NCBI GenBank assembly: GCA_013377075.1
Contig: JACABD010000002.1
Span: 1 to 64,000, forward strand
Length of the DNA stretch: 64,000 nt
Reading direction: 5' to 3'
DNA from: Geobacteraceae bacterium
GTDB taxonomy: Bacteria; Desulfobacterota; Desulfuromonadia; Geobacterales; DSM-12255
In this document: positions 30,035 to 40,168 of the stretch, one piece after another
How the letters are laid out: each line of letters begins with the position of its first letter
Position numbering within the stretch: the first letter of the stretch is position 1
The notes under the pieces: generated by a model
Told to the model about the DNA's origin: nothing
The model's input: only the letters and a program-made list of their open reading frames with translations
Database searches by the model: none
Made by a program: the position numbers and the translations under genes

Positions 30035-30222
30035 GTAGGTTTTCGCATCAAAATGAAACCAAGATTTGAAATATTTCTGCTACGTATTATTTTAAATATA
30101 TAAAAAGCCTAATAATGCAGGTCCGTTATTAGGTTTATGCAATGAATTATCATTTGACGTATCCGCCGTTATAGTTGTATCCTTCCTTCTAATTAAAAAG
30201 TCGACAATCAGTATAACTACAC

Positions 30223-30306
30223 ATTTTCCGATAATAGCAACTCCGGAGCAATCCGGGGACGCAGAGCCAGGGGTCCCAAGTGGACAGCCCAGCCGCCGAA
30301 GAAAAT
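30223..30306 (+). ncRNA. GEMM-I-type cyclic-dinucleotide riboswitch aptamer, possibly cGAMP-selective (GEMM-Ib)
   Basis: P1 ATTTTC/GAAAAT; AATAGCAA; P2 CTCCGG/CCGGGG; GGACGCAGAGCC; GGGGTCC-CAAGT-GGACAGCCC; GCCGCCGAAG; followed by terminator and secreted-protein gene. Confidence 0.8.
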
Positions 30307-30358
30307 CGTTATTTCAATTCGTTGTTTCAAGGCCACTTCTGCCAGCGAAATGATAAAC

Positions 30359-30395
30359 GCCCGCCTTCGGTCTGACCGGAAGCGGGCTTTTTTTT
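30359..30395 (+). terminator. riboswitch expression-platform intrinsic terminator
   Basis: GCCCGCCTTCGGT-CTG-ACCGGAAGCGGGC (one mismatch, one G-U) then TTTTTTTTT, between aptamer and ATG 30442. Confidence 0.8.
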
Positions 30396-30441
30396 TATCT
30401 CATCAAATTGATCCTTAAATTCAGATAGCGGAGGCTCTACT

Positions 30442-33400
30442 ATGACTAGTTTCCAATCAACAAAATTCCTGTCATTTTATCGATCTGTAAACTTTTCCCG
30501 TATAGCCGCATTACTCCTGTTTGGCACTCTTTTCTTCTTGCAGGAGTGGTCATGGCCGGGAAAAGCAGAAGCTGCCGACTGCACGTCTGCAACTTCCTGG
30601 CATACAACAGGCAATGGAGGTAACTGGTCAAGCAATGCGATATGGCAATGTAATACTGGTTCATGGGTTGCTCCAAATGCCGGTCAATATCCGGGCTTTG
30701 GCGGCAGGACTACAGATAATGTGCAGATCCTGGAAGGGACTGCTACCACTACAGTAACTCTGGATACCAGTGTAACCATTGCCAGTCTGGCATTCCCTAC
30801 TTCGGGAGTCGGAATGGCCACCAACCTTAACCATAGTGGAACAAATACCTTGAATGTTACCGGTACTGTTGCCATGAATCAGCCATCTCTAACTGCTTTT
30901 CTTTATACCTGGAACATTGGCGGTGGCAGTGCAACCGTCGACGGTTTGATCAGCTTCAACGGTACTTTAGCTGGTGCCAACAAGCGGATCACGGTAGGTG
31001 CGGGAACCCTGAATGCCAATGCAGGCATCAGTTTCCCGACAGGCGGCGCAGCAGCTGCCAATGTACTTTACATGACCGGCGCTGCCGGAAGGATAAATCT
31101 GAAAGGTGTGGTGACCAACCCGACACTCGGCACCCTTACCGGTGGCACTACTGGCAGCATTTTTAACTTTGCTGACACGACAAATGCGCAAACTATTCCC
31201 ATGACCTCTACCTGGACATACAACAATCTTTACATCAACAACACCAGTGCAAATGGAGCGTCTTTGAATGCAGTCGTATCGGCAGCCAGGGTTACCGGTG
31301 ACCTGCGGGTGCAAAGCGGCACCCTGAACAACGGCGGTTTTGCCATAGTTGGAGCTGCTACCAAGGCCTTTGAGGTGGTAAATGGCTCTACTTTTCTCCT
31401 TAGCGGCACCACAAGTGCCATGCCAACTGGCTTTTTATCAACATCTCTTGGCACAACCAGTACAGTGAATTTTGGCGGAACCGGTATCCAAACCATTAAT
31501 GCTGTTAGCTACGGAAATCTTATCAGCAGCAGTACCGGCGCACGTACTCTTGCAAGCAGCGGCACCATTGGTGTCGCCGGTTCATTTACACCGGGCACGA
31601 ATACATACACAGTGACCGGCAGCACAGTCAATTTTAACGGCGCTGCCCAGAACGTGCCGGCCTTAACCTATAACAACCTGACATTCAGTGGAAGCGGCAC
31701 CAAGTCAACTGTAAGCGGCACAACTGTCAACGGCACTCTGAATATCCCCGCAGGAGGTGCCACAGCCAGCCTTGCAGCTCCAATAACAGCAAACATTCTG
31801 ACATTGGGCAGTATGGGCACTGCAAATACAACCTGGGGCGGCACTGGTTCGGGTGCTACCTATATTAATTCAACATTCTTTAATCCGGCAACAAGCGGAA
31901 ACTATGTAACTGTCTCAACCAATACCCGGGCTGCGCAGGCAGCATTGACAGTGACAGCTCCAACCGGTATCACCTATGGCTCAACCGGTCAGATAGTCAC
32001 GTCAGGCGGCTCAGGTACAGGAGCAATGTCATACAGTCATGGTGCATCCAGCGGCTGTACGGTTAACCCAACGACCGGTGTTATAGCCGTAACCAATGCC
32101 ACTGGCAGCTGTTCAGTAACCGCCACGAAAGCTGCTGACGGCAATTACTCAGTTGCGACTTCAGCCGTTTATCCGGTCACGCTCACAAAGGCAACCCCCA
32201 GCGTAACAACCTGGCCGACCGCAAGCGCCATTAACCTCGGCGATGCGCTTTCAGCTTCAACCCTTACCGGTGGCAGTGCCTCTGTTGGTGGCGTTTTTGC
32301 TTTCACCAACCCTTTGACGGTTCCGTCATCGTCAGGAACCTACAACGCTTCGGTAACCTTTACCCCGGCAGATACTACTGACTACAACACCGCTACCGGT
32401 TCAGTGAATGTTACAGTTAACGTGGGCAAAACCGACCAAACCATCACCTTCGGTGCCTTGTCTCCTGTGACCTACGGCGCAGCTAATTTCGGTTCCGGCG
32501 CCACCGCCTCTTCCAGCCTGACCGTGACCTATAGCAGCTCTGACACCAATGTCGCCACCATAGTTGGGGGATTGATTCATGTTGTTGGAGCAGGTACAAC
32601 AACCATCTATGCCGATCAGCCAGGAGATGCCAGTTATAATCCGGCTCCGCAGGCCTCCCAGACCCTTACGGTCAACAAGGCTACTCTGACTGTTGCCGCA
32701 CAGAATGAAAGCCGTTCCTATGGTTCGGCGAATCCGATCTTTACCCCGACCTACAGCGGCTTTGTCTATGGAGAGAGTGCAGCAGTGCTGACCGGTGTTC
32801 CCAGTCTTATCACCACCGCTGACAGTAACAGCCCGGTGGGGAGTTACGACATAACTGCCAGCGTCGGCACTCTGGTAGCAGCTAACTATGATTTCTCTTT
32901 CGGTACAGGCACTCTGGCCGTCAGCCTGGCCAGCCAGACCATCACCTTCAATCCGCTGGCTGCCAGGACCTATGGCGATGCTGTCTTTGATCTGACTGCC
33001 ACTGGCGGGGCTTCCGGAAACCAGGTCACCTATGCTAGCTCCGACCTGACAGTAGCTACTGTGAGCGGCGCCACTGTCACCATAGTCGGCCAGGGAATTA
33101 CCACCATCACTGCTAATCAGGCTGGCAACAGCAACTATGCCTCCGCAACAGCCCAACAGAATCTGGTTATCAACAAGAAGACCCTCAACGTAGCCGCACA
33201 GAATGAGAGTCGGCCCTATAATACCGACAACCCGACCTTGACGCCGAGTTACACTGGTTTTGCATATGGAGATACCACAGCAGTGCTGACCGGAACTCCG
33301 GTCATAACTACTGCGGCAACCAAAACCAGCCCGGTGGGGAGCTATGACATTGACGTTGCCGTTGGCAGTCTGACCGCGGCCAATTACTCATTTAGCTTTA

Positions 33401-34926
33401 CCAAAGGCATACTTGCAGTCGGCCTCGCCAGCCAAACCATTGCATTCACAGCTCTGCCAGCCAAGACGTACGGCGAATCCACTTTCGAACTCTTAGCCAC
33501 TGGCGGCGATTCCGGAAATTCGATTACCTTCGCCAGTTCCAATACTGCCGTCGCCGCTGTAAGCGGAACAACCGTCACTATTGTCGGGGCAGGGACCACC
33601 ACCATTACCGCCAGCCAGGCTGGCAACAGCAATTATGCCTCAGCAACAGCGACACAGGACCAGCTGATCAACAAGGCAGCGCTGACAGTAACGGCTCTTG
33701 TTTCCAGCCGCGATTATGGTACGAGCAACCCGACCTTCGCTCCTGACTACAGCGGCTTTGCATATTCTGACACTGCCGCAGTTCTGCAAGGGGCACCCAG
33801 CCTTACTACTGATGCAGTTATCGGCAGTCCGGTCGGGGCTTACCAGATCAATGCGGCTCAAGGCAATCTGTTCTCAAATAATTATTCATTCAGCTTTGTT
33901 GCCGGGACCTTGACCATCAACAAGGCATCTTCAAACATAACCACCTGGCCGACAGCCAGTGCCATCACCTACGGCCAGACACTGGCCTCCTCGATCCTTG
34001 GCGGCGGCGCAGCCACACCTGCTGGCAGCTTTGCCTTCACCACCCCGTCCACATCCCCTGCTGTTGGCACAGCCACCCAGAGTGTCACCTACACACCGGC
34101 CGATTCCGCCAACTACACTGTTGCTGTAAGTACGGTGAGTGTAATAGTCAACATGGCCAGCCAGACCATCGGCACCATCAGCTTCAGCCCTCCGACCCTT
34201 ACCACCGGCGGCACCACAGCGGCCAGCGCCATTGCCAGCTCCGGACTTCCGGTCAGCTTCAGCAGCAACACGCCGACCGTCTGCACAGTAAGCGGCAGCA
34301 CGGTATCTGCAGTAACCGCCGGAACCTGCACCATCAAGGCAAGCCAGGGTGGCAACGGCAACTACACTGCTGCCATTGATGTCACCCAGGATCTTACGGT
34401 TACATCAGCCAGCGCCACACTGACCGTAACAGTTCTCGGCACAGGCGGCGGTTCAGTCCACAGCTCTCCACAGGCAATTGCCTGCGCAAGCGGCTCTGCA
34501 ACCGACTGCAGTAAATCATTCTCAAACGGTACACCTGTAACACTAACTGCCACGCCTGATTGGAAGTCTGTCTTTAGCGGATGGGGAGTTCCATGTAGTG
34601 GCACAGGCAGCTGCATGATCACTCTTGATGGTGATGCCGGTGTTTCAGCCAGCTTTAATGTTAATGGTCAGGCAACTATCATAGGGCACACACTAACCGA
34701 ATACGGCAGTTTGCAGGATGTATACAATGCCGCCAGTAACGGCAGCATAGTTGCCGCCCATGTCTACACCTTTGCGGAAAACCTAATCCTGAACAGGCCG
34801 ATCTCAGTTACCCTTGATCTTGGCAAAGGGAGTCTCTATCTTAGTCCGGCAGGTTACACAACCCTGCAGGGAACGCTGACTATTGAACAAGGGACAGCAA
34901 CTGTTAGCAACTTGATCATAGATTAG
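30442..34926 (+). CDS. large secreted repeat protein with MBG/YDG- and Ig-like repeats
   Basis: Signal peptide region, Ser/Thr/Gly-rich N-terminal beta-repeat region, repeated 'NKATLTVAAQNESRSYGSANPxFTPxYSGF' and 'ASQTITFxxLxAxTYG' units, C-terminal GTGGGSVxSSP repeat-like domain. Confidence 0.85.
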   Translation: MTSFQSTKFLSFYRSVNFSRIAALLLFGTLFFLQEWSWPGKAEAADCTSATSWHTTGNGGNWSSNAIWQCNTGSWVAPNAGQYPGFGGRTTDNVQILEGTATTTVTLDTSVTIASLAFPTSGVGMATNLNHSGTNTLNVTGTVAMNQPSLTAFLYTWNIGGGSATVDGLISFNGTLAGANKRITVGAGTLNANAGISFPTGGAAAANVLYMTGAAGRINLKGVVTNPTLGTLTGGTTGSIFNFADTTNAQTIPMTSTWTYNNLYINNTSANGASLNAVVSAARVTGDLRVQSGTLNNGGFAIVGAATKAFEVVNGSTFLLSGTTSAMPTGFLSTSLGTTSTVNFGGTGIQTINAVSYGNLISSSTGARTLASSGTIGVAGSFTPGTNTYTVTGSTVNFNGAAQNVPALTYNNLTFSGSGTKSTVSGTTVNGTLNIPAGGATASLAAPITANILTLGSMGTANTTWGGTGSGATYINSTFFNPATSGNYVTVSTNTRAAQAALTVTAPTGITYGSTGQIVTSGGSGTGAMSYSHGASSGCTVNPTTGVIAVTNATGSCSVTATKAADGNYSVATSAVYPVTLTKATPSVTTWPTASAINLGDALSASTLTGGSASVGGVFAFTNPLTVPSSSGTYNASVTFTPADTTDYNTATGSVNVTVNVGKTDQTITFGALSPVTYGAANFGSGATASSSLTVTYSSSDTNVATIVGGLIHVVGAGTTTIYADQPGDASYNPAPQASQTLTVNKATLTVAAQNESRSYGSANPIFTPTYSGFVYGESAAVLTGVPSLITTADSNSPVGSYDITASVGTLVAANYDFSFGTGTLAVSLASQTITFNPLAARTYGDAVFDLTATGGASGNQVTYASSDLTVATVSGATVTIVGQGITTITANQAGNSNYASATAQQNLVINKKTLNVAAQNESRPYNTDNPTLTPSYTGFAYGDTTAVLTGTPVITTAATKTSPVGSYDIDVAVGSLTAANYSFSFTKGILAVGLASQTIAFTALPAKTYGESTFELLATGGDSGNSITFASSNTAVAAVSGTTVTIVGAGTTTITASQAGNSNYASATATQDQLINKAALTVTALVSSRDYGTSNPTFAPDYSGFAYSDTAAVLQGAPSLTTDAVIGSPVGAYQINAAQGNLFSNNYSFSFVAGTLTINKASSNITTWPTASAITYGQTLASSILGGGAATPAGSFAFTTPSTSPAVGTATQSVTYTPADSANYTVAVSTVSVIVNMASQTIGTISFSPPTLTTGGTTAASAIASSGLPVSFSSNTPTVCTVSGSTVSAVTAGTCTIKASQGGNGNYTAAIDVTQDLTVTSASATLTVTVLGTGGGSVHSSPQAIACASGSATDCSKSFSNGTPVTLTATPDWKSVFSGWGVPCSGTGSCMITLDGDAGVSASFNVNGQATIIGHTLTEYGSLQDVYNAASNGSIVAAHVYTFAENLILNRPISVTLDLGKGSLYLSPAGYTTLQGTLTIEQGTATVSNLIID
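32671..33925 (+). repeat. tandem 498-bp (166-aa) intragenic repeat
   Basis: Equivalent Asn codons of the NK(A/K)(T/A)L motif at 32674, 33172, 33670 (498 nt apart); GCTGGCAACAGCAA(C/T)TATGCCTC at 33121 and 33619. Confidence 0.85.
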
Positions 34927-36901: not shown

Positions 36902-39900
36902 CTAATCCTGTTGGTCATAGGGTGACTGCTCAATCCTGAATGCCACCATTGATACGTCGTCAGTCAGTGGATTACCTCCTGAAAAGCAGATAACCTCCCG
37001 GTATATGTGGTCAACTATCTGTTGAATAGGCTCATCATGGCATTTAATAAGAATATTCTCAAGCCGCTCAATACCGAACAATTCACCGTCATCGTCTGTT
37101 GCCTCTGTTACTCCGTCTGTGTAAAGTAACAGTAGATCGCCCGGGTTTAACATAATAGATCTGTCCTCAAAAACTATATCTCCCTTCACACCTATGATCA
37201 TCCCTTCCGCATCCAGCATCTGACATTCCTGTTCTGTTGCCTGGTATAGCAGGGGGGTGTTATGACCAGCATTAGAGTAAGTGAGCCACTGGGTTGCACA
37301 GTCATATTTTATATAAAACATCGAGATGAATAGTTCCGCCCTTGTCAAATCCGGCAATAGAAGGTTATTAAGAGATGCCAGTATTCCCGAAGGAGTAGTG
37401 TTGATATTTACCTGTGCTCTCAGGACTGATCGGGTTTCAACCATGATAAGTGCGGCTCCGACATTGTGTCCTGAGACATCCGCTATCACAGCATCAAAAA
37501 ATCTGTCATCGCTGACAAAGAAATCATAATAGTCTCCTCCGACATGGTCGGCGGAGACTGAGAGTGACGCAATCTGCAATCCTGAAATGTTCGGCGGAGC
37601 ATCTGGAAGCAGTGAGAGCTGTATCTGCTTGGCCATCTCCATTTCGTGCTGAACAGCGGCATTTTTAAGAAGTGCGGCATCTTTCTCGTTCTTTTCATGT
37701 TCACGGGCCTCTCGCTCATCTACTAGCTTTACGGCAAGAGCAAGCTGACCAGCCAGGCTTGATAGCAGGTTCAGCAGTTCTTCAGTAAAAAGGCCTACTA
37801 TTGATATTGAATATACCGAGAGTACCCCCAGAGGCTCTTCGTCCCCTACCAGTGGAATGTGGGCAAATGCGGCAAATGTGTCAACAGGCGTGACCGCCGA
37901 AGCTGTTCTTCTGGTAATGTTTCTGGTGTCGTTGGCAAATTGTGATTTTTTGGTTGTAAGAAGTTCTGAAATAAAGAAGTCCTCTGTCGGGCTGATTTTT
38001 GCAGATATGCGAAAGTCGCCATTAAGAATGCTTTTTTCAGACAGAAGCGGCATGTTTCTATCGTTGTCTATCAGTCGGACAGTTACCAGGTCAAAGTGGA
38101 ACTCCTTGACTAAAAGTTCAAGTAACTCTTTGGTGATTGATTGCAAGCTGCCAGACCTGTTCATTATTTCAGATGATTTAAGCCTGACATAAAGAGCTTC
38201 GCGGCTTTCTTCAAGTGATGATCGGACTGACCTGAAAGCGTCATAAAATGATTCCATGCCTGAACCGACATCAGAGAGGTAGTTTTCTATAATTGCGCTT
38301 GCCGCAGCAGAACCAACCGAACCTGCGATGGTTTTCTCGACAAATCTCTTCAGGCTGGGAAGCTCGAATTCAGATACCATCCCCTTTTCATCAATTTCAT
38401 GAAGGGATAGATATTCGCTAATAGCCTCATGAGCCTGTTTTTCGCCGATAAAGTTTTCCATTAGGCCGACAAATTCGATAATTGTGACAGGTTTTGAGAG
38501 CCTCTTTGTCTCCCAAAGATCAGTACGTGTTCCCTCTGAATAGGGTTCAGCAAATTTGATGCATTGCTCTTTCTCGGCTTCGCTCTGATTTAGAAGGATG
38601 GAGAAAAGAAGGTAGCCGCCAATGTTGAAGAGCATGCTCCAGAAAAGCGAGTTGCTCCACATATCCAGACCGGTCAGACCGAAAAGCTCTGTTGGTTTGA
38701 GTATTGAAAGGCCGAACAAACCATGTTCAAGGATGTCTGTATCTATCCATCCGGACTTGATGACAGAGGGGAGAAGAAGGGTGTAAAACCAGATAGAAAA
38801 CCCACCCATAATGCCAGCAATGGCGCCTGCGGCATTACCTCTGGGCCAGTATATTGCGCCTATTAGTGAAGGTGCTAGCTGAATTGCGGCTGAAAATGAA
38901 ATCAGGCCTATATTCACCAGCATGAAAGTGTCACCTATTATCTGGAAATAGGCATATCCAAGAAAAATGACAAGGAATATACTCATTCGCTTCAATGCCA
39001 GTATGAGTGTTGAAAAAGAGTCGGTAATTCTCAGCCTGAGCACTAAAGGCATCAGAAGATGGTTAAGTATCATTGTTGATGTTGCAACTGATTCAGCAAT
39101 GACCATCCCTGCTGCAGCTGAGAACCCTCCAAGAAATGCCAGTAGTGCAAGCCAGTGATGACCAGTGTTCATTGGTATTGTCAGTACAAAATAATCTGCT
39201 CCGCTGTTACTTCCGTTTAATAGAATCCCTCCGAAAGCGATAGGGATAACAAACAGGTTTATTGCAAACAGATAGGCAGGAAAACGCCACATTGCCTCCT
39301 TGATATGATTTTCATCAGAGTTTTCAATAACCATGATCTGGAATTGTCTCGGAAGTAGCATTACGCTTCCCATGGCAAGGAAGAGGTTGGTGGACCAGTT
39401 GGCATAACTTGTCTCGTTTAAATCGCCAAGAGTTGTCAAATGATCAAATAAATAGGGATATTTGGATGACATTTGCCCCATGATGTCAGTGAATCCATTG
39501 AAAAGGAAGTAAGTCACATATATGCCGACGCAGATGAAAGCCAGAAGCTTTACCACGGATTCAAAGGCTATTGCAGCTACAAGCCCTTCATGACGGCGCT
39601 GTGTGGCAAGGCTTCTTGCTCCGAACATGATTCCGAAGATACTGATGAAAATGGCGAAAAAAAGTCCAGAGTTATTAATTGCAAAAGAGTTTTTGAGGTG
39701 TTCCGGGAGCTGAAAGGAGGGGTGATTGCAGATAAGTATGAATGTTGATGAGACAGCCTTTAGTTGCAGGGCTATATACGGGATTATTCCCATGACCGCA
39801 ATGATGGTTATAGCTGCACCGAGAAACTGGGATTTGCCATATCTTGAACTGATAAAGTCTGATATGGATGTTATGTTGTTCTCCTTGGTAATTCTCACAA

Positions 39901-40168
39901 TTTTTCTTAGAATAAACCACCATGTAAATGCAGTGAGTGATGGGCCAAGGTATATGACTATGAAGTCTATGCCAGATGTGGCAGCCCGGCCTACACTTCC
40001 ATAGTATGTCCATGATGTGCAGTAGACGGTTATTGACAGGGAGTATACAAATGAGTTGGAAACAATGCTTCTCCCTTTCTGATAGCGTTTGTACGCATAA
40101 ATTGCCACCAGAAAGTGAAGGCATATGTATAAGGAGATGGCAATTAATAGAGACTGAAAACTTATCAT
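36902..40168 (-). CDS. sodium:solute symporter-GAF-SpoIIE (PP2C) phosphatase fusion
   Basis: Multi-TM SSSF-like N-terminus (about 550 aa), GAF-like segment, C-terminal MAKQIQLSLLPDAPP..HVGGDYYDFF..IADVSGHNVGAAL..LLLYTDGVTEA PP2C/SpoIIE motifs. Confidence 0.9.
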   Translation of the reverse strand: MISFQSLLIAISLYICLHFLVAIYAYKRYQKGRSIVSNSFVYSLSITVYCTSWTYYGSVGRAATSGIDFIVIYLGPSLTAFTWWFILRKIVRITKENNITSISDFISSRYGKSQFLGAAITIIAVMGIIPYIALQLKAVSSTFILICNHPSFQLPEHLKNSFAINNSGLFFAIFISIFGIMFGARSLATQRRHEGLVAAIAFESVVKLLAFICVGIYVTYFLFNGFTDIMGQMSSKYPYLFDHLTTLGDLNETSYANWSTNLFLAMGSVMLLPRQFQIMVIENSDENHIKEAMWRFPAYLFAINLFVIPIAFGGILLNGSNSGADYFVLTIPMNTGHHWLALLAFLGGFSAAAGMVIAESVATSTMILNHLLMPLVLRLRITDSFSTLILALKRMSIFLVIFLGYAYFQIIGDTFMLVNIGLISFSAAIQLAPSLIGAIYWPRGNAAGAIAGIMGGFSIWFYTLLLPSVIKSGWIDTDILEHGLFGLSILKPTELFGLTGLDMWSNSLFWSMLFNIGGYLLFSILLNQSEAEKEQCIKFAEPYSEGTRTDLWETKRLSKPVTIIEFVGLMENFIGEKQAHEAISEYLSLHEIDEKGMVSEFELPSLKRFVEKTIAGSVGSAAASAIIENYLSDVGSGMESFYDAFRSVRSSLEESREALYVRLKSSEIMNRSGSLQSITKELLELLVKEFHFDLVTVRLIDNDRNMPLLSEKSILNGDFRISAKISPTEDFFISELLTTKKSQFANDTRNITRRTASAVTPVDTFAAFAHIPLVGDEEPLGVLSVYSISIVGLFTEELLNLLSSLAGQLALAVKLVDEREAREHEKNEKDAALLKNAAVQHEMEMAKQIQLSLLPDAPPNISGLQIASLSVSADHVGGDYYDFFVSDDRFFDAVIADVSGHNVGAALIMVETRSVLRAQVNINTTPSGILASLNNLLLPDLTRAELFISMFYIKYDCATQWLTYSNAGHNTPLLYQATEQECQMLDAEGMIIGVKGDIVFEDRSIMLNPGDLLLLYTDGVTEATDDDGELFGIERLENILIKCHDEPIQQIVDHIYREVICFSGGNPLTDDVSMVAFRIEQSPYDQQD

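Follow-up and report, generated by a model that had tools for sequence, protein, structure and literature searches.

The window, a stretch of 64,000 nucleotides from a Geobacteraceae bacterium, contains a structured leader in front of a long protein-coding gene (Table 1). The encoded protein had been described as giant and secreted. At 1494 aa the size holds, and secretion is suggested by the apparent signal peptide. The NCBIfam search returned no family for this protein. A protein of 1088 aa that carries GAF and SpoIIE phosphatase domains is encoded nearby (36902-40168, minus strand).

The leader consists of a GEMM-I aptamer, a linker hairpin, and an intrinsic terminator. The terminator, which had been placed ahead of the ATG at 30442 in the original prediction, is present there as a hairpin (about -19.4 to -20.7 kcal/mol) followed by nine T, and terminator-type control of the leader is supported. 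A TATAAC hexamer had also been proposed as the -10 element. The hexamer is indeed found, 6 nt upstream of P1, but it was not chosen by the promoter scan and no matching -35 was found. Because the scan did not choose it, a promoter here is only plausible. Immediately upstream of the aptamer, 29 of 44 A20/G21 RNAs have a hexamer resembling a -10 element, a count made without a control.

Table 1. Features of the leader and its gene in the window (base numbers of the aptamer follow Vc2).
Feature	Position	Strand	Basis or remark
TATAAC, -10-like hexamer	30212..30217	+	sequence
GEMM-I aptamer including P1	30223..30306	+	Rfam match and MFE
P1, ATTTTC/GAAAAT	30223-30228 / 30301-30306	+	present in MFE
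A20	30236	+	Rfam column 11; alignment column 11
G21-C46 pair, c-di-GMP-type orientation	30237 / 30262	+	alignment; canonical GEMM-Ib has C21-G46
G48-C90 pair in place of A48-U90, foot of P3, adjoining the ligand	30264 / 30294	+	covariation
Strand A, GCCGAAG, 5' half of the antiterminator; C92 (30296) and first nt of the P1 3' strand	30295..30301	+	folding
Linker hairpin joining the A and T regions	30308..30358	+	MFE; consensus fold of 4 genera shows compensatory pairs
Strand T, CUUCGGU; partner is strand A or the terminator 3' arm	30365..30371	+	folding, conservation
Intrinsic terminator hairpin and U9 tract	30359..30396 (hairpin 30359-30387)	+	sequence GCCCGCCTTCGGTCTGACCGGAAGCGGGC
GGAGG ribosome binding site	30430..30434	+	sequence
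Controlled gene, 1494-aa protein	30442..34926	+	ORF, apparent signal peptide, three MBG_2 repeats

The aptamer and its subtype

The leader matches RF01051 (GEMM-I / c-di-GMP-I) at 30226-30300 on the plus strand. The cmscan score is 48.5 bits against a gathering threshold of 35, with an E-value of 2e-6 for the window, and the full model (positions 1-87) is covered. P2 and P3 are present in the MFE structure together with P1, and the whole leader has a z of -2.1. The three helices meet in a three-way junction in which C92, which pairs with the ligand, and the intercalating A47 (30263) are in place. The covariance model thus upholds the GEMM-I assignment made earlier, with P1, P2, and P3 as described. 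Judged by its sequence, the element is a sound GEMM-I riboswitch with a predicted ligand and a predicted sign of control.

Base 20 contacts the second purine of the ligand and is G in c-di-GMP receptors. Position 11 of the Rfam model was equated with G20 of Vc2 through the long-range 21-46 pair, and the A that had been claimed at this c-di-GMP-specific position is found there. The claim that the RNA is therefore a cGAMP-type GEMM-Ib holds for A20 but not for the foot of P2, as the C21-G46/U22-G45 signature is missing and the GEMM-Ib profile gives 8.4 bits. The 22-45 pair is C22-G45 in the window RNA and U22-G45 in canonical GEMM-Ib. Measured against GEMM-Ia, the RNA has the G21-C46 scaffold and A in place of G at position 20. 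In the crystal structure of GEMM-Ib with cGAMP, the A is A14 and P2 begins at C15-G40 (PMC6274999). Position 48 pairs with position 90 at the opening of P3 and is among the bases that contact the ligand (A42-U73 in PMC6274999).

A profile survey of the order used loci from up to 141 genomes and gave 232 distinct GEMM-I aptamers. Written as base 20 followed by the 21-46 and 22-45 pairs, these include canonical GEMM-Ib (A.CU/GG, 90 of 232), the c-di-GMP type (G.GC/GC, 52), the window type (A.GC/GC, 43), G.GU/AC (16), and G.CC/GG (12), in an uneven sample where A20/G21 RNAs were enriched through a pattern search. With leave-one-out profiles, the window aptamer scores 51.9 bits as A20/G21, 28.0 as G20/G21, and 8.4 as A20/C21, and the order stays the same when column 20 is masked. 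By comparison, the A20/C21 profile gives 60-79 bits for the other seven GEMM-I RNAs of this genome.

G48 also sets the group apart. It occurs in 19 of 44 A20/G21 RNAs and in 1 of 72 G20/G21 RNAs. Among A20/G21 RNAs, 22 have A-U as the 48-90 pair and 17 have G-C, and two of the complete cases are exceptions. A later, independent scan searched GTDB for the G48 core with a pattern that did not specify C90, and C90 was found in all full-length new RNAs. The window RNA is thus, on these sequence characters, a different, non-canonical GEMM-I subtype (A20, G21-C46, G48-C90), and the label of cGAMP-type GEMM-Ib is not established for it. A20, G48, and GAAA-type loops also occur in other GEMM-like cores (L302, L305, L310, L319, L320, and L321), which come from MAGs labelled Gemmatimonadetes, Acidobacteria, Myxococcales, and Deltaproteobacteria. 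Their P3 looks different, the terminator of L302 overlaps the aptamer, and they are possibly another GEMM-I variant.

Expression platform and predicted switching

Terminators were classed as overlapping when the 5' arm lies inside the aptamer and as separate when it lies outside. A first classifier built on the best forced hairpin placed 20 of 43 A20/G21 RNAs in the overlapping class. These calls proved to be composites of antiterminator and terminator, and an outer-helix criterion was adopted for this reason. Among the surveyed aptamers with called terminators, C21 aptamers have 99 overlapping and 1 separate, G21 aptamers have 4 overlapping and 86 separate, and A20/G21 aptamers have none overlapping and 37 separate (from about a dozen genera), counts that are not independent because the aptamers share phylogeny. 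In the GTDB scan, A20/G21/G48 RNAs have 10 separate terminators and 1 overlapping, the remainder being uncalled. The layout therefore follows the identity of the 21-46 pair rather than that of base 20. G20 aptamers with a GEMM-Ib-like C21-G46 pair (e.g., L228 and L176) have mostly overlapping (ON) terminators, which likewise argues that it is the 21-46 pair that accompanies the platform.

RNA-seq in Geobacter sulfurreducens (PMC6456294) and the case of pilM (PMC9262584) support the reading of overlapping terminators as ON switches. The reading of the separate layout as OFF is supported by Cd1, the c-di-GMP riboswitch of Clostridioides difficile (PMC9262584). The window terminator is separate, with an overlap helix of just 1 bp, and the ON platform of GEMM-Ib is lacking. 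The original prediction overlooked this layout, which predicts OFF and not ON.

The 3' strand of the aptamer and the 5' arm of the terminator can form an antiterminator that excludes both the aptamer and the terminator, as expected for an OFF-type platform. For transcripts that end at 30372-30376, the antiterminator (-47.2 kcal/mol) is favored by about 8 kcal/mol over the structure with P1 formed (-38.9 kcal/mol). For the full-length leader, P1 plus terminator (-56.7 kcal/mol) is favored over the antiterminator (-53.8 kcal/mol). Since the antiterminator is favored early and P1 plus terminator late, a ligand that locks the aptamer before strand T is made would cause termination. In the proposed mechanism, strand A would pair with strand T once T is made if ligand is absent. 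This would dissolve P1 and the binding site, block the terminator, and let the secreted-protein gene be transcribed. With a cyclic dinucleotide bound, strand A would stay in the aptamer and P1, T would pair with the 3' arm (H), and the terminator would form, so that transcription would end at about 30396.

All seven A:T pairs are intact in the four best full-leader relatives, which belong to four genera. Two relatives lack T:H pairing at two positions at the top of the stem of the terminator, yet A and T still pair there, an argument that pairing with A is what conserves T. Among A20/G21 RNAs whose terminator is separate, 12 of 37 show perfect A:T complementarity over 6 nt, against 4.2 expected from dinucleotide shuffles (P ~1e-4). 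Pairwise covariation was considered for A:T and dropped, since strand A fits the terminators of other group members equally well: in a composition-matched test, the longest complementarity with the own terminator (5.98) is not higher than that with the terminators of other members (5.83). Both strands are conserved, and the support for A:T is therefore motif conservation. A weaker alternative pairs the 3' strand of the aptamer with the 3' arm of the terminator (-14.6 kcal/mol, against -20.7 for the terminator, by single-sequence folding).

Cd1 and the window RNA share this arrangement, with a terminator of T and H and an antiterminator of A with T. Ligand favors the terminator in Cd1, and its strand logic is the reverse of that in the ON switch pilM (PMC9262584). 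The window RNA differs from Cd1 in its A20 in place of G, its host, its linker hairpin, and its G48-C90 pair. With the GEMM-Ib RNAs of Geobacter (GSU1761/pgcA and pilM; PMC6456294, PMC9262584) it shares the GEMM-I fold, A20, a Geobacter-type host with a Hypr cyclase, and transcriptional control of surface or extracellular proteins. It differs in G21-C46 in place of C21-G46, G48-C90 in place of A48, a separate terminator, and a predicted OFF response where GSU1761/pgcA and pilM are ON. The element is thus probably a transcriptional GEMM-I riboswitch of the A20/G21-C46/G48-C90 kind with an OFF-type platform, which would respond to cGAMP, c-di-GMP, or both.

Candidate ligands and related RNAs

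There are eight RF01051 matches in the assembly, the window RNA included. The seven others read CGAYAMUACUNAACC ... CRGAA(A)GCC, which gives A20, C21-G46, and U22-G45. These are canonical cGAMP-type GEMM-Ib RNAs by sequence, of the same type as those of Geobacter. In six of the seven, the terminator takes its 5' arm from the 3' strand of the aptamer, as is known for ON switches. The seventh is the second copy of a tandem pair, and no terminator was called for it. The tandem pairs of canonical GEMM-Ib are at G000:C1:62461-62744 (L003 and L005) and G000:C13:21515-21756 (L004 and L008). In the L003/L005 pair, the second aptamer, without a called terminator, is directly upstream of a gene for an RCC1-like secreted protein.

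Replacement of the diguanylate-cyclase Asp by Ser is the hallmark of Hypr GGDEF proteins. The GAF-GGDEF protein L035 has this Ser (FKGVNDTYGHLTGS ... GGDEF). Its best PDB sequence match is 6d9m, presumably, by its entry name, a GGDEF fusion for the study of GacA. L035 is a GacA-like Hypr cyclase as far as its sequence tells. Together with the canonical GEMM-Ib RNAs, it makes a cGAMP pathway in the source genome likely.

The ligand of the window RNA may be 3',3'-cGAMP, c-di-GMP, or both. A20 would make cGAMP binding possible, in a cell that appears to have a Hypr-type cyclase. A crystal structure of Vc2 G20A with cGAMP (4YB1) exists, as cited in PMC6274999. Like the window RNA, Vc2 G20A has A20 on a c-di-GMP-type aptamer, and it indicates that cGAMP can bind. 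In Desulfobacca acetoxidans, a cluster 3 aptamer that naturally has A20 gains c-AMP-GMP binding and retains most c-di-GMP binding (PMC9481103). That its scaffold is also of c-di-GMP type is the present author's reading, and a G48-C90 pair is not mentioned in the text. The c-AMP-GMP and c-di-GMP switches of D. acetoxidans were predicted by their authors to be ON, whereas the window RNA is predicted to be OFF. No report of OFF-type A20 RNAs was found in the literature checked, a scope outside which the founding GEMM-Ib papers (PNAS 2015) lie.

It is quite possible that the window RNA tolerates A20 and serves as an OFF switch with c-di-GMP as its physiological ligand. The scaffold and the platform are both of c-di-GMP type, and position 20 is a selectivity factor rather than a hard filter (PMC9262584). 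Two genomes of high completeness (G106 and G108) carry A20/G21 RNAs of the A48 form, and no Hypr-GGDEF motif or canonical GEMM-Ib was detected in them, by a strict motif search that could miss a divergent cyclase. A20 alone is therefore no proof of cGAMP. The gain of c-AMP-GMP binding by the Desulfobacca aptamer speaks against c-di-GMP as the physiological ligand. The restriction of the G48 form, which is that of the window RNA, to genomes with a Hypr motif in the order-level survey does so as well, with little weight, as 130 of the 141 survey genomes carry the motif and co-occurrence cannot identify the ligand at this base rate.

Alternatively, A20, G21-C46, and G48-C90 may define a natural GEMM-I subclass, occurring in three or more families of the order, that senses cGAMP as an OFF switch; this reading is put forward tentatively. 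It is quite unlikely that the window RNA is a canonical, cGAMP-specific GEMM-Ib that turns its gene ON as in G. sulfurreducens, the version first proposed. A20, the Hypr cyclase, and the seven canonical RNAs of the same genome are consistent with it, but the low GEMM-Ib profile score, the missing P2 foot, and a terminator that is separate, as in every A20/G21 RNA with a called terminator in the order-level survey, all argue against it. It is highly improbable that the aptamer is decayed or unregulated and that the terminator behind it is an ordinary one. A promoter weak by consensus would fit this reading, but relatives from three other genera keep the binding-site bases along with P1, the linker hairpin, the antiterminator, and the terminator, and the G48-C90 pair covaries.

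The OFF-type riboswitch favored here would be new in having A20 on a c-di-GMP-type aptamer with a predicted OFF platform, beside seven ordinary cGAMP-type RNAs. In G. sulfurreducens, deletion of gacA lowers every reported GEMM-Ib gene (PMC6456294). If the cGAMP-sensing OFF subclass is real, Hypr/cGAMP signalling would have a repressing arm opposite this activating regulon. If confirmed, GEMM-I RNAs that act in opposite directions would coexist in one genome, and the direction would go with how a single ligand-adjacent base pair is oriented, not with base 20. This would caution against annotating A20 as "cGAMP, ON." It would also give surface proteins a repressing branch, including a multihaem-cytochrome-like protein in two relatives.

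Reading of the translations indicates that other A20/G21 RNAs precede further large, apparently secreted repeat proteins, and that CxxCH cytochrome-like proteins follow such RNAs in two genomes. The downstream surface proteins are unrelated, and it therefore appears that the RNA is a module attached to differing surface genes. L066 and L114, one of them from Geobacter sp. AOG1, are A20/G21/G48 RNAs ahead of secreted proteins with CxxCH haem motifs, and each is predicted from its sequence to be an OFF switch on a cytochrome-like gene.
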